Assembly (NCBI RefSeq): GCF_012641365.1
Contig: NZ_JABAIM010000001.1
Location: 1,488,001-1,552,000, forward strand
Reading direction: 5' to 3'
Origin: Leeia aquatica
GTDB lineage: Bacteria > Pseudomonadota > Gammaproteobacteria > Burkholderiales > Leeiaceae
DNA length: 64,000 bases
The translations under genes and the position numbers were made by a program. The number at the start of each line of letters is the position of its first letter. Position 1 is the first letter of the stretch. The notes under the pieces are model-generated. The model was not told the DNA's origin and did not search any database. It saw only the letters and a list, made by a program, of their open reading frames with translations. Of this stretch, positions 1,448 to 11,337 are shown in pieces.

Positions 1448-2392
1448 TTACGCCCCTTGCAAGGTGGTATCCAGGATCCGCAGCACCAGGTCGGGATAAT
1501 CCATCCCGGCCTGCCGAGCCCCCATCGGCACCAGGCTGTGGCTGGTCATGCCCGGCGCGGTATTGGCTTCCAGCAAATACGGCTGGCCTGCGGCATCGGT
1601 CATGAAGTCGATCCGGGCCCAGCCTCGACCGCCGATCGCCCAGAAGGCCTTCTTCACCAGCTCACCAATAGTGGCTTCCTGCTCGGCGGGCAAACCACAC
1701 GGGCAGCGGTACACCGTGTCATCACGGAAATACTTGGCCTGGTAATCGTAAAACTCGGTCGCCGGTTCAATCTTGATGGCGGGCAGCGTGACAAAGCCAC
1801 TGACCTCATCGCCCAGGATCGGCATGCTGTACTCGCCACCATCCAGAAAACGCTCCGCCAGCACCACGCGGTCATAGCGCCGTGCTTCGGCAAAGGCTGC
1901 AGGCAGATCAGCCGCCTGCTTCACCTTGCTGATGCCGATGCTGGAGCCTTCGATATTCGGTTTGACGAAGATCGGCAGGCCCAGCTTGGCAACAACGGCA
2001 TCCCAGTCGCTGTGCTCATCCAGCAGCTCAAACTGCGGCACCGGCAAACCCAGTGCTTGCCACAGCAGACGGCTGCGCAGCTTGTCCATGCCGATGGCCG
2101 ACGCCATCACGCCACAGCCGGTATACGGCAGGCCCATCACTTCCAGCGCACCCTGTACCGTGCCATCCTCACCGAAGGGGCCATGCAGGATCAGGAAAGC
2201 ACGATCAAACCCCTCGGTTTTCAGATCTGCCAGCGGGCGCTCCGCCGGATCAAACGCATGTGCATCCACGCCCCGGCTGCGCAAGGCATCCAGCACACCA
2301 TTACCGCTCATCAGCGAGACTTCGCGCTCGGCGGACGGGCCACCCATCACTACCGCCACCTTGCCGTACTTCTGCTTCATGTCCATGCTCAT
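1448..2392 (-). CDS. ddl: D-alanine--D-alanine ligase
   Basis: It joins two D-alanines with ATP in the cytoplasm to supply the dipeptide that MurF adds to the peptidoglycan precursor. The N-terminus shows [14 protein letters not shown], then LHGPFGEDG, the ATP-grasp segment [12 protein letters not shown], and the Mg-binding end ARIDFMTD...[14 protein letters not shown]. Length (314) fits DdlB. The ATG overlaps the murC stop in an ATGA, which suggests translational coupling. Position between murC and ftsQ is the classical DdlB position. Confidence 0.96.
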
Positions 2393-3780
2393 TGTCCTGC
2401 CACCAATTTGCCCGGCACCGCCCCGATGGAGCCTGCCCCCATGGTCATCACCACGTCACCCGGCTGCGCCACCCGCAGGATGGCCTCCGGCATATCCGCA
2501 ATCTCGGCCACAAACACCGGCTCGACCCGGCCTTGCACCCGCACGGCACGCGCCAGGGCACGGCCATCTGCCGCCACGATCGGCTGCTCACCTGCTGGAT
2601 ACACCTCGGCCAGCAACAGACCATCCACGGTGGACAGGACCTGGGCAAAGTCTTCAAACAGATCACGGGTACGGCTATAACGGTGCGGCTGGAAGGCCAG
2701 CAGCAGACGGCGATCCGGAAACGCGCCACGGGCTGCGGCCAGCGTTGCCACCATTTCCACCGGGTGATGGCCGTAATCATCCACCAAGGTGAAGCTGCCA
2801 CCTTGCGGCAACGGCACTTCGCCATAACGCTGGAAGCGACGGCCTACCCCGCCAAACTCGGCCAGCGCGCTTTGAATCGCCTCTTCCGACGCGCCCACTT
2901 CCAGCGACACCGCGATGGCGGACAGCGCATTCAGCACATTGTGGTGGCCCGGCGTATTGAGCGTGATGGGCAAACGGTGCTCGGTACCGTTCTGCCATAC
3001 CGCGTCGAACTGCATCTGGCCATGGTTGGCGACGATGTTCTCGGCGCGAATGTGCGCGTCTTCACTCACCCCGTAGGTGGTGACCGGCTTGCTGATGCGC
3101 GGCAGGATGGAGCGCACGTGCGGATCATCCACACACAGCACAGCACGTCCATAGAACGGCAGGCGTTGCAGGAAATCGACAAACGCGCCCTTCAGCCTTT
3201 CAAAATCATGGCCATAGGTATCCATATGATCGGCGTCGATGTTGGTCACAATCGCCATCACCGGGCTCAGCATCAGGAAGGACGCATCCGACTCGTCTGC
3301 TTCCGCCACCAGAAAATCACCCTTACCCAGCTTGGCATTACTGCCCGCTGCGTTGAGCCGCCCACCGATCACATAGGTCGGGTCCAGCCCGGCCTTGCCG
3401 AGAATGGAAGCCACCAGACTGGTGGTGGTGGTCTTGCCGTGGGTACCCGCCACCGCAATGCCTTGCCGCAGCCGCATCAACTCGGACAGCATCATGGCGC
3501 GCGGCACCACCGGAATGCCCAGTTCACGGGCTTCCTGCACTTCCGGGTTATCTGCCTGTACGGCGGTAGAAGTGACCACCACGTCGGCCCCATGCAGCAA
3601 CCCCTTGCCATGCCCCTGGTGGATGCTGGCACCCGCCTTGGCCAATCGCTGCGTGGTGGCATTGCTGGCCAGATCACTGCCGCTGACCTCGAAACCGAGG
3701 TTGAGCAAGACCTCGGCAATGCCGGACATGCCTACGCCGCCAATGCCAACAAAATGAATCCGTTTGACCTTGTGTTTCAT
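2389..3780 (-). CDS. murC: UDP-N-acetylmuramate--L-alanine ligase
   Basis: MurC adds L-alanine to UDP-MurNAc, the first peptide step of peptidoglycan synthesis. The N-terminal Rossmann motif [17 protein letters not shown], the ATP loop [11 protein letters not shown] (around residue 120) and the C-terminal [16 protein letters not shown] are diagnostic. 463 residues is normal. It overlaps murG upstream and ddl downstream by 4 nt each (ATGA), so the three are probably co-translated. Confidence 0.98.
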
Positions 3781-7408: not shown

Positions 7409-8527
7409 TTACCTCAGCTTCAGGGTGGCCAAACCAGCCAACACCAGCATCATGGTGATGATCCAGAAGCGGACCACCACCTGCGTTTCCTTCCAGCCCT
7501 TCTTCTCGTAGTGGTGATGCAAAGGCGCCATCAGGAAGATGCGCTTGCCACCGCTGTACTTGAAGTAGGCCACTTGCAGCATCACCGACACCGCTTCCAC
7601 CACGAACACGCCGCCCATGATGGCGAACACGATTTCCTGCCGCACGATCACCGCCACCGTACCCAGACCGGCACCAATCGCCAGTGCACCCACATCACCC
7701 ATGAACACTTCTGCCGGGTAGGCGTTGAACCACAGGAAGCCGAGACCTGCCCCGACCAGGGCGCCGCAATAGATCACCACCTCGCCGGTACCCGGCAGGA
7801 AAGGGAAGCCCAGGTGCCGAGCGTGCAGCATATTGCCCGCCACGTAGGCAAACACCGCCAGGCCACCTGCCACCATGACGGAGGGCATGATGGCGAGGCC
7901 ATCCAGCCCGTCGGTCAGGTTGACGGCATTGCTGCTGCCGACAATCACCAGATAGGTCAGCACCATGAAGCCCACCAGCCCAAACGGGATGGCCACAGTC
8001 TTAAAGAAGGGCACCAACAGCGTGGTCTGAGCAGCGGTTTCCTTGAAATCGGACAGTGCAAAGCTGCCATGGGTCGCCAGCCAGTAACCGGCGATCAGCG
8101 CAATGGCGCTCTGGCCGATCATCTTGGCGCGGGCAGACAGGCCTTTCGGGTTCTTGTGCACCACTTTCTTGTAGTCATCAATGAAGCCGATCGCCCCGGT
8201 ACCCAGCGTCACCAGCAGCAGCAGCCAGACGTAGTGGTTGCGCAAGTCGGCCCACAGCAAGGTGGTCATCGCCAGCGACAGCAGGATCAAGGTCCCGCCC
8301 ATGGTCGGCGTACCGGCCTTGCTCAGATGGGTTTGTGGACCATCATCACGGATCGGTTGGCCCACTTTCAGCGAGGTCAGCTTGCGGATGACCGACGGCC
8401 CCAGCCACAGCGAGACAAACAACGCGGTCAGCATCGCCAGCACGCCACGCAGGGTGACGTAGTTGAACACATTGAAGGCCCGAATCTCGGTATGGGCCGC
8501 CAGCCATTGTGCCAGTAGCAACAGCAT
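7409..8527 (-). CDS. mraY: Phospho-N-acetylmuramoyl-pentapeptide transferase
   Basis: MraY moves phospho-MurNAc-pentapeptide onto undecaprenyl phosphate, making lipid I in the inner membrane. It is polytopic, with conserved [13 protein letters not shown] near the N-terminus, [23 protein letters not shown] and [11 protein letters not shown], and it ends with [13 protein letters not shown]. These cover the aspartates of the PNPT family active site. Only 2 nt separate it from the stop of the murE/murF gene, so coupling is likely. Confidence 0.98.
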
Positions 8528-8529
8528 GC

Positions 8530-11337
8530 TCAGGCCTCCCTCATGAAATGTTCCACTACCCGCTCCATACGCATGGCACGAGAGCCTTTAACCAATACCG
8601 AACAATCGGCATCCAGCAAGGTTTCCAGCGCCTGCAACAGGGCATCGAACTCGGTAAAATGCTGTGCCGTCGGGCCATATGCAGCACACGCCTGGGCAGT
8701 GTCCCCACCCCAGGCCAGCATGCAATCGGTGCGTCCTTGCGCGTAGGCGCCCACCTCGGCGTGCAGGTCACGGCTTTGCTCGCCCAGCTCACCCATGCCG
8801 CCCATCACAAACACCCGCTTGCCCGGCATGGCTTGCAGCACATCCAGTGCAGCGCGCATGCTGGCAGGCTGGGCGTTGTAGGTGTCGTCAATCAGACGGC
8901 CACCGAAGCGGGCGGGCTTCTGCTGCAAGCGGCCCTTGCTGCCCTGGTATTGGGCCAGCCCGGCTGCCACGGCCTTGGGAGAAATGCCCAAAGCCAGCGC
9001 AGCCGCGGTGGCTGCCTGCGCATTGCGCACATTGTGTTGTCCCGGCACCTGCAGGCAGGTTTGAATCTCACCCGACAGAGTATGCAGCAGCAACTCGGTA
9101 CCACGTGCGCTGCTGCTGGCTTCGGCATGCACATCCGCCTGCGCCGTACCGAAGGACACCATGCGGCGCCCGGGGTTGAGACCGCGCCAGTAGTCCGCAT
9201 ACGGGTCTGCCGCATTGATGACTGCGATACCGCTGGCGGCAAGACCCCTGAAAATTTCGCCCTTGGCCGCGGCAACGCCATCCAGCGTGCCACCCACACC
9301 AGGCAGATGGATCGGAGCGGCATTGTTGATCAGGGCCACATCCGGACGGGTTAGCCCTGTCAGGTAGGCAATCTCGCCGGTGTGATTCATGCCCATTTCG
9401 ATCACGGCGAAGCGGTGCCGAGGACGCAGACGCAGCAGGGTAAGCGGCAAACCGGTATGGTTGTTGAAGCTGCCCTCAGTGGCCAATACCTGTTCAGCAC
9501 CGACTTCAGCTGCACAAATCGCCGCCAGCATCTCCTTGACCGTGGTCTTGCCGACCGAGCCCGTGACACCAGCCACCGGGATGCGGAAACGCCCACGCCA
9601 CCAAGCTGCCAGTTTGCCCAACGCCAGATCCACATCGGCCACCTGCAATACCGGGCAGGCATAAGCGGCTGCAGGTACTTCACTGACCAGCGCGGCCACG
9701 GCACCTGCCGCCAGCGCATCCGGAATCAGGGCATGGCCATCCAGCGACGCACCCTTGCGTGCCACATACAGGCTGCCCTGTTGGACTGTGCGGGTATCGT
9801 GGGTGACGTGGCGGAAGGCCACATCGTTGCCGATCAGCTGCGCGCCAATGGCTTCAGCGGCCATGCTGAGCGTGGTCATCGCAGTTTCATCCGCGCCCAC
9901 CAGCGCCTGCCGTGCTTCTTCCACATCGTCAAAGTGGTGCTTGGTCTTGCCGATGATCTGGTAATCCTCGTTGCCCTTGCCGGCGATCAATACGATGTCG
10001 CCCGCTTGGGCAGCCGCAATGGCATGGCGGATGGCGGCACGGCGATCGACCTCGACATGGTGAGCGCCCACCACACCCGCTGCCACCTGCGCAACGATGC
10101 TGTGCGGGTCTTCGGTACGCGGATTGTCGCTGGTCACCACAGCCACATCAGCCAGCCGACCGGCAATTTCGCCCATGATGGGACGCTTGCCCGCGTCACG
10201 ATCACCGCCACAGCCAAACACGCAGTAGAGCTTGCCCCCTGCGGGCAGGACATCGCGCAGTGTTTGCAATGCGTTTTCCAGCGCGTCCGGCGTGTGCGAG
10301 TAGTCCACCACCACCGAAGGCAGCGTACCGCCGCCGACCCGCTGCATGCGACCGGCCACACTGCGAATCTTGCCCAGCACGCAGCCAGCCTCTGCCAGCG
10401 ACACGCCTTCGCACAACAGCACACCCAGCACGCCCAGCAGGTTGGCGACATTGAAGCGCCCCAGCAGCGTACTGTTCACGGACACGCCCCCCTGCGGGGT
10501 GACCAGCTCAAGTTGCAAGCCATCCAGGCCCATCTGCAACTGGCGGCAATGCAGGTCACCTTGCGACAGGCCATAGCTCAGCACCTGCACGCCCTGCGCC
10601 CGGGCCAGCGCCACCAGTTCGGGCCCAAACGGGTCGTCAATATTGATCACGGCATGTTGCAGACCGGGCCAGCGGAACAGGCGGGCCTTGGCAGCGCCAT
10701 AGGCGGCCATGGTACCGTGATAATCCAGATGATCACGGGTCAGGTTGGTAAACAAGGCGGTACGGTAACGCGCACCGTTGACACGGCCTTGCTCCAGCGC
10801 ATGCGAGGACACTTCCATCGCCACCGCCTGCGCGCCCTGTTTCAGCAAGTCCGCCAGGGTGGCGTGCAAGGTCACGGCATCCGGTGTGGTGTTAGTGGCC
10901 TCCACCAGCTGCCCGGCAAAGCCGTTGCCTGCCGTACCGATGACTGCAGTCTTGCAGCCCAGTGCATCCAGCGCCTGCATCAGCCAGTGGGTGCAGGAAG
11001 TTTTGCCATTGGTACCGGTGATACCGATCAGGCTCAGCTGCTGACTGGGTGCGCCATACCATTGATCGGCGATCTGGCCCAGCTGTTCGCGCAAGCCGGT
11101 CACCGCGCAATGCGGCACTTGCAGCACAGCGGGCCACTCGAAACCTTCGGCTTCATAGATGACGGCGCTCACGCCAGCGGCTACCGCTTGCTCAATATAA
11201 CGACGACCATCCTGGGCGCTGCCCGGCATGGCAACAAATACCCGCCCCGGACCGGCCATGCGGCTATCCAGCGTCAGGTCGGTGACCGATGGCGGCAGTT
11301 GCCGCAGAAATGCCATCACATCCATGTTCAAACTCAT
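8530..11337 (-). CDS. murE-murF: MurE-MurF fusion ligase (UDP-MurNAc-dipeptide--DAP ligase / tripeptide--D-Ala-D-Ala ligase)
   Basis: This single 935-residue frame holds two complete Mur ligases. Residues 1 to about 480 are MurE: ATP loop [10 protein letters not shown] (105-114), [17 protein letters not shown], and DNPR (404-407), the motif that selects meso-diaminopimelate. Residues about 487-935 are Mur[25 protein letters not shown] (592-599), [15 protein letters not shown] and [15 protein letters not shown]. The join is [20 protein letters not shown]. The methionine at residue 487 (ATG at 9877-9879) looks like the former murF start, so an internal start could still make separate MurF. The gene overlaps ftsI by ATGA. 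Such fusions are known, for example in Bordetella. Confidence 0.95.

Follow-up and report, generated by a model that had tools for sequence, protein, structure and literature searches.

A MurE-MurF fusion in the genus of Leeia aquatica, apparently separate in origin from that of Bordetella

Introduction

It is debated whether the Mur ligases assemble into a channelled complex, and the question bears on the poor performance of Mur inhibitors in cells. The closest described system is the MurE-MurF fusion of Bordetella pertussis, which is the only one for which both ligase activities have been reported in one purified polypeptide. In a coupled assay this protein gave no gain in rate, and its active sites were estimated to be about 35 Å apart (PMC6420597). 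There is a structure, 8f5d, entitled 'Architecture of the MurE-MurF ligase bacterial cell wall biosynthesis complex', which from its title and its 71% identity to the Bordetella petrii protein used below as a control we take to be that of the B. pertussis protein. MurE-MurF fusions were noted in a number of proteobacteria and bacteroidetes in a 2016 review (PMC4929429), while a 2019 paper lists Bordetella, Pseudovibrio, Desulfobulbus and Desulfobacula (PMC6420597); Bordetella had been correctly cited as the precedent in the initial annotation of the DNA described here.

A search of mostly open-access literature found no published description of a MurE-MurF fusion in the Leeia lineage. Fusions of this kind are already known, and what is new here is an added lineage, in which the fusion arose separately and is joined in another way. 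We consider it highly probable that the Leeia aquatica protein is a bifunctional ligase, fused once in the ancestor of its genus and independently of the fusion in Bordetella and Achromobacter, and that it is best described as two ligases on a tether.

Results and discussion

The fused gene and its setting

The window, meaning the whole stretch of L. aquatica DNA that was analysed, is 64,000 nucleotides long. The features relevant to the fusion are as follows.

8530..11337, minus strand: murE-murF fusion gene (murEF), 935 codons plus stop, ATG at 11337; PRK11929 match, 1043 bits
9901..11337, minus strand: MurE half, residues 1-479; TIGR01085, 626.8 bits, and alignment to E. coli MurE (1e8c)
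9880..9900, minus strand: spacer VGADETA, 7 residues; from comparison with congeners, predicted loop
8533..9879, minus strand: MurF half, residues 487-935, from the retained MurF ATG; TIGR01143, 532.2 bits, and alignment to P. aeruginosa MurF (4cvk)
11334..11337, minus strand: ATGA overlap of the ftsI stop and the murEF start; from ORF coordinates and sequence
7409..8527, minus strand: mraY, adjoining murEF downstream in the dcw cluster; TIGR00445, 414 bits
13080-13454 (ORF), minus strand: ftsL, assigned from position and size

The initial annotation had placed a complete MurE and a complete MurF in one uninterrupted frame at 8530-11337. The coordinates are right, and the strand, which had been omitted, is minus; the plus strand of the same interval has a stop in frame 1. 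The frame has profile matches to both enzymes (TIGR01085 over residues 18-479 and TIGR01143 over residues 513-931), and all the motifs sought in the two ligase halves were found. In the MurE half these are TGTNGKT at 107, HLDYHG at 203, YGAAKARLF at 213 and DNPR at 404-407, the last of which bears out the earlier assignment as a DAP-type MurE. In the MurF half they are TGSVGKTT at 592, the loop that had already been recognized, NNHTG at 625, an 11-residue motif at 817 and VKGSR at 916. The calculated mass of the protein is 98.1 kDa.

The curated bifunctional NCBIfam model NF008896/PRK11929 matches the protein over its full length (residues 10-932), and at 1043 bits the cut-off of 1023 is passed, although the score is well below the 1324.8 bits of the B. 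petrii protein. The fusions of the two congeners score slightly under the cut-off, at 1021.5 and 1004 bits. The likeness to the B. pertussis protein extends to the order of the domains (MurE then MurF), the length of about 935-945 residues and the location in the dcw cluster, and the L. aquatica sequence is 47% identical to 8f5d over 747 aligned positions. Taken separately, the halves align nearly end to end with E. coli MurE (1e8c) and P. aeruginosa MurF (4cvk, 4cvm), at 42-45% identity, but these are two proteins from two genes, unlike the single chain in L. aquatica.

The surrounding dcw cluster is ordinary and intact, and reads on the minus strand as mraZ, rsmH, ftsL, ftsI, murEF, mraY, murD, ftsW, murG, murC, ddl and ftsQ. 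The ATGA overlap of ftsI and murEF is consistent with translational coupling, and the anti-SD duplex upstream of the murEF ATG is -6.6 kcal/mol. The start of mraY is 2 bases past the murEF stop. Further along the cluster (window 1448-3780), ddl comes straight after murC without an intervening murB.

No second murE or murF was found in the genome: its only two other matches, with E values of 6e-9 and 7e-6, are weak and fall at murC and murD. The single copy means that an essential pathway depends on the fusion gene, which is therefore very probably functional.

Anatomy of the join

The family of L. aquatica was sampled by three genomes of one genus, from separate assemblies, and all three carry the fusion at the same place. 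The two congener proteins are 60-65% identical to that of L. aquatica, indicating that the frame has stayed open at the seam through considerable divergence.

A short join containing GCG ATG ACC had been described, and this is what is found when the minus strand is read: the seam encodes VGADETA at 9900-9880 and is followed by the murF ATG at 9879-9877. The corresponding spacers of the congeners are LNAPDDT and LNAPQDS. In all three species the MurF ATG is retained and is followed by a threonine codon (ATG ACC, ATG ACC and ATG ACT, encoding Met-Thr), and the fusions align from MurF residue 1, so that the whole MurF N-terminus is kept behind a 7-residue spacer. AlphaFold predicts the spacer as a loop between a helix at 471-479 and the first elements of MurF, a strand at 488 and a helix at 490-497. 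The Bordetella-type join is different: MurF is picked up at about residue 25, about 24 N-terminal residues are missing, and a long, extended C-terminal helix of MurE leads straight into MurF.

A stop-removing or frame-joining change at a short murE/murF junction would have put a complete MurF, with its ATG, in frame after MurE. It had been suggested that the bases at the join are the remains of a lost ATGA stop/start overlap. In favor of this, a 4-base overlap is the commonest murE/murF junction in split relatives (48 of 138). Against it, any ATG followed by A resembles ATGA, and the nearest split families are mixed, two loci having the 4-base overlap (L008, L114) and one an in-frame TAG (L006). 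Since both kinds of junction occur in these families, the sequences make a lost ATGA a possible ancestral state but do not decide the matter. In 21 of the 138 split relatives murE and murF share one frame, and removal of the intervening stops would be enough to fuse them.

Other junctions in the set of loci vary in spacing. Nine split loci (L004, L005, L006, L089-L091, L094, L095 and L097) have murE and murF in the same frame with only one or two stop codons between them, so that losing these would turn the pair into a fusion. An unusually wide gap of about 2.2 kb is present in L147 (genome G042, between 1624 and 3807), while about 1.1 kb of other sequence separates the genes in Neisseria polysaccharea (L050, 5473 to 6588) and about 0.5 kb in a Neisseria MAG (L065, 5458 to 5914).

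Internal initiation at the MurF ATG

The retained ATG raises an alternative, namely that the full fusion is made together with a separate MurF initiated at 9879-9877. The codon is kept in three of three species and is followed by threonine, as in a natural MurF start, and the anti-SD duplex upstream of it in L. aquatica is -3.4 kcal/mol, which is near the gene-internal background of about -2.6 to -3.0 kcal/mol rather than absent. The congeners have no SD to speak of (0 and -0.7 kcal/mol), whereas the median at the best-scoring murF start of the 138 split relatives is -6.95 kcal/mol, a contrast that is exaggerated because those starts were picked partly on their SD. On this sequence comparison a separate MurF is unlikely, although of the alternatives considered here it survives best. 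A nicked or internally initiated MurF may occur, above all in L. aquatica, whose site is at the background level and not below it.

Predicted structure, and tether versus channel

The AlphaFold model of the L. aquatica fusion, made from 13 fused sequences, has a pLDDT of 89.5 and a pTM of 0.81. Its alignment contained fused rows only; when separate MurE and MurF sequences were combined with them, the MurF rows became aligned onto the homologous MurE half. The two halves of the model match solved structures well, with Z scores of 39.7 for MurE (1e8c) and 41.0 for MurF (4cvm). The best match to the whole chain is 8f5d, with an rmsd of 23.7 Å over 802 alignment columns, a figure that comes without an estimate of the inter-domain error. 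A control model of the B. petrii protein, made with the same set of fused sequences, superimposes on 8f5d with an rmsd of 5.7 Å over 781 columns, and this agreement indicates that such modelling is able to reproduce the known arrangement. The models thus give a hint that the halves are placed differently in the L. aquatica protein than in 8f5d.

The protein would act in two consecutive steps. The N-terminal MurE half would add meso-diaminopimelate to UDP-MurNAc-L-Ala-D-Glu, and the C-terminal MurF half would add D-Ala-D-Ala to the resulting tripeptide. Most likely the two enzymes fold independently and are held together by a flexible tether, so that the MurE:MurF ratio would be fixed at 1:1 and the tripeptide would stay close to the enzyme that uses it next, through proximity and not through a tunnel. 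We infer that the protein is made at full length, with activity in both halves, and that it brings a benefit through co-production or proximity; the fusion could also be neutral, the tether bringing no benefit.

The initial annotation had suggested that the fusion could channel the tripeptide directly. Such a handover, from the active site of MurE to that of MurF, would imply that the geometry of the fusion has been selected. MurE and MurF do catalyze consecutive steps, and their fusions recur, with at least six changes of state on the tree described below. The proposal nevertheless finds no support here. It sits badly with the B. pertussis fusion, given the lack of a rate gain in the coupled assay and the distance between its sites (PMC6420597), and also with the variation among lineages in join length and in the predicted positions of the halves, which speaks against a single channel geometry having been conserved. 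We regard direct channelling as improbable, a little more so than internal initiation.

We suggest tentatively, as something less than an even bet, that MurE and MurF have been fused separately in two betaproteobacterial lineages, with different inter-enzyme geometries as the outcome. If so, the two lineages would be a natural comparison for asking what such fusion is selected for, be it a specific channel or complex surface or just co-production. Independent fusions with different joins are in effect a test, in that a geometry that matters should be converged on, and the evidence leans against convergence on one geometry. Otherwise, the finding lengthens the list of lineages with such fusions by one family, a modest addition to what is already known.

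Origin of the fusion

On a tree of 83 concatenated MurE and MurF sequences, from which the join was left out, the fused state requires at least six changes. In a smaller and more careful tree the clade of the Leeia genus (support 100/100) is nested among split relatives of the Neisseriales type, including Neisseria, Paludibacterium and Vogesella (96/97), while the Bordetella-type fused clade (100/99) is placed elsewhere, with split families between the two; the bootstrap for this tree was short of full settling. All trees were calculated under LG+G4.

The initial annotation had allowed for an independent event, and the trees uphold this. A common ancestry with the Bordetella-type fusion, whether by descent or by gene transfer, could be argued from the identical domain order and from the fact that the L. 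aquatica protein passes a bifunctional model built for such fusions. When the genus and the Bordetella-type sequences were constrained to one clade, however, the log-likelihood of the concatenated sequences fell by 215 and the constraint was rejected by the AU test (p = 0.0001), as it was for each half alone (p = 0.022 for MurE and 0.0028 for MurF). Together with the intervening split families and the differing joins, this makes a shared origin very improbable. It is concluded from these sequence comparisons that the fusion in the Leeia genus arose independently of that in Bordetella and Achromobacter, and that several such events have occurred in the betaproteobacteria.

An assembly or sequencing error, such as the indel near 9880 that had been named as a possible refutation, could in principle have joined the frames of two separate genes by removing the stop that divided them. 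No evidence for an error was found, however, and both congeners, in separate assemblies, have an open frame at the same seam. An indel in a single assembly is thereby ruled out, and this explanation is left with almost no credibility.

Distribution of MurE-MurF fusions

In an even, order-wide sample of 399 genomes, uninterrupted full-length matches were found in at least nine genomes from three families. Among the matches listed, these are three genomes of family f1 (G000, G001, G002), five of f4 (G054, G175, G295, G324, G377) and one of f19 (G361). In addition, G018, from a fourth family (f17), likewise has MurE and MurF in one frame. The fused loci that could be named are from Achromobacter, B. 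petrii, an Azohydromonas-labelled MAG and a further betaproteobacterial MAG, and, outside the class, from Syntrophaceae (L017) and a Pleomorphomonas MAG (L036).

Four betaproteobacterial fusions, L092 (in G361), L126 (in G018), L028 and L043, fall outside both the genus clade and the Bordetella clade and have spacers of their own; L028 and L043 are truncated, at a frame change or at the end of a contig. These four, together with L017 and L036, are like the L. aquatica protein in having both ligases in one frame with MurE first, but are found elsewhere on the tree and differ from it in their spacers. A survey of the phylum, the threshold of which was too strict for a measure of prevalence, gave only one further uninterrupted full-length match: in a genome from another class (G410, contig 10, 229609-232437), a frame of 1000 aa contains MurE and MurF at 40% identity.
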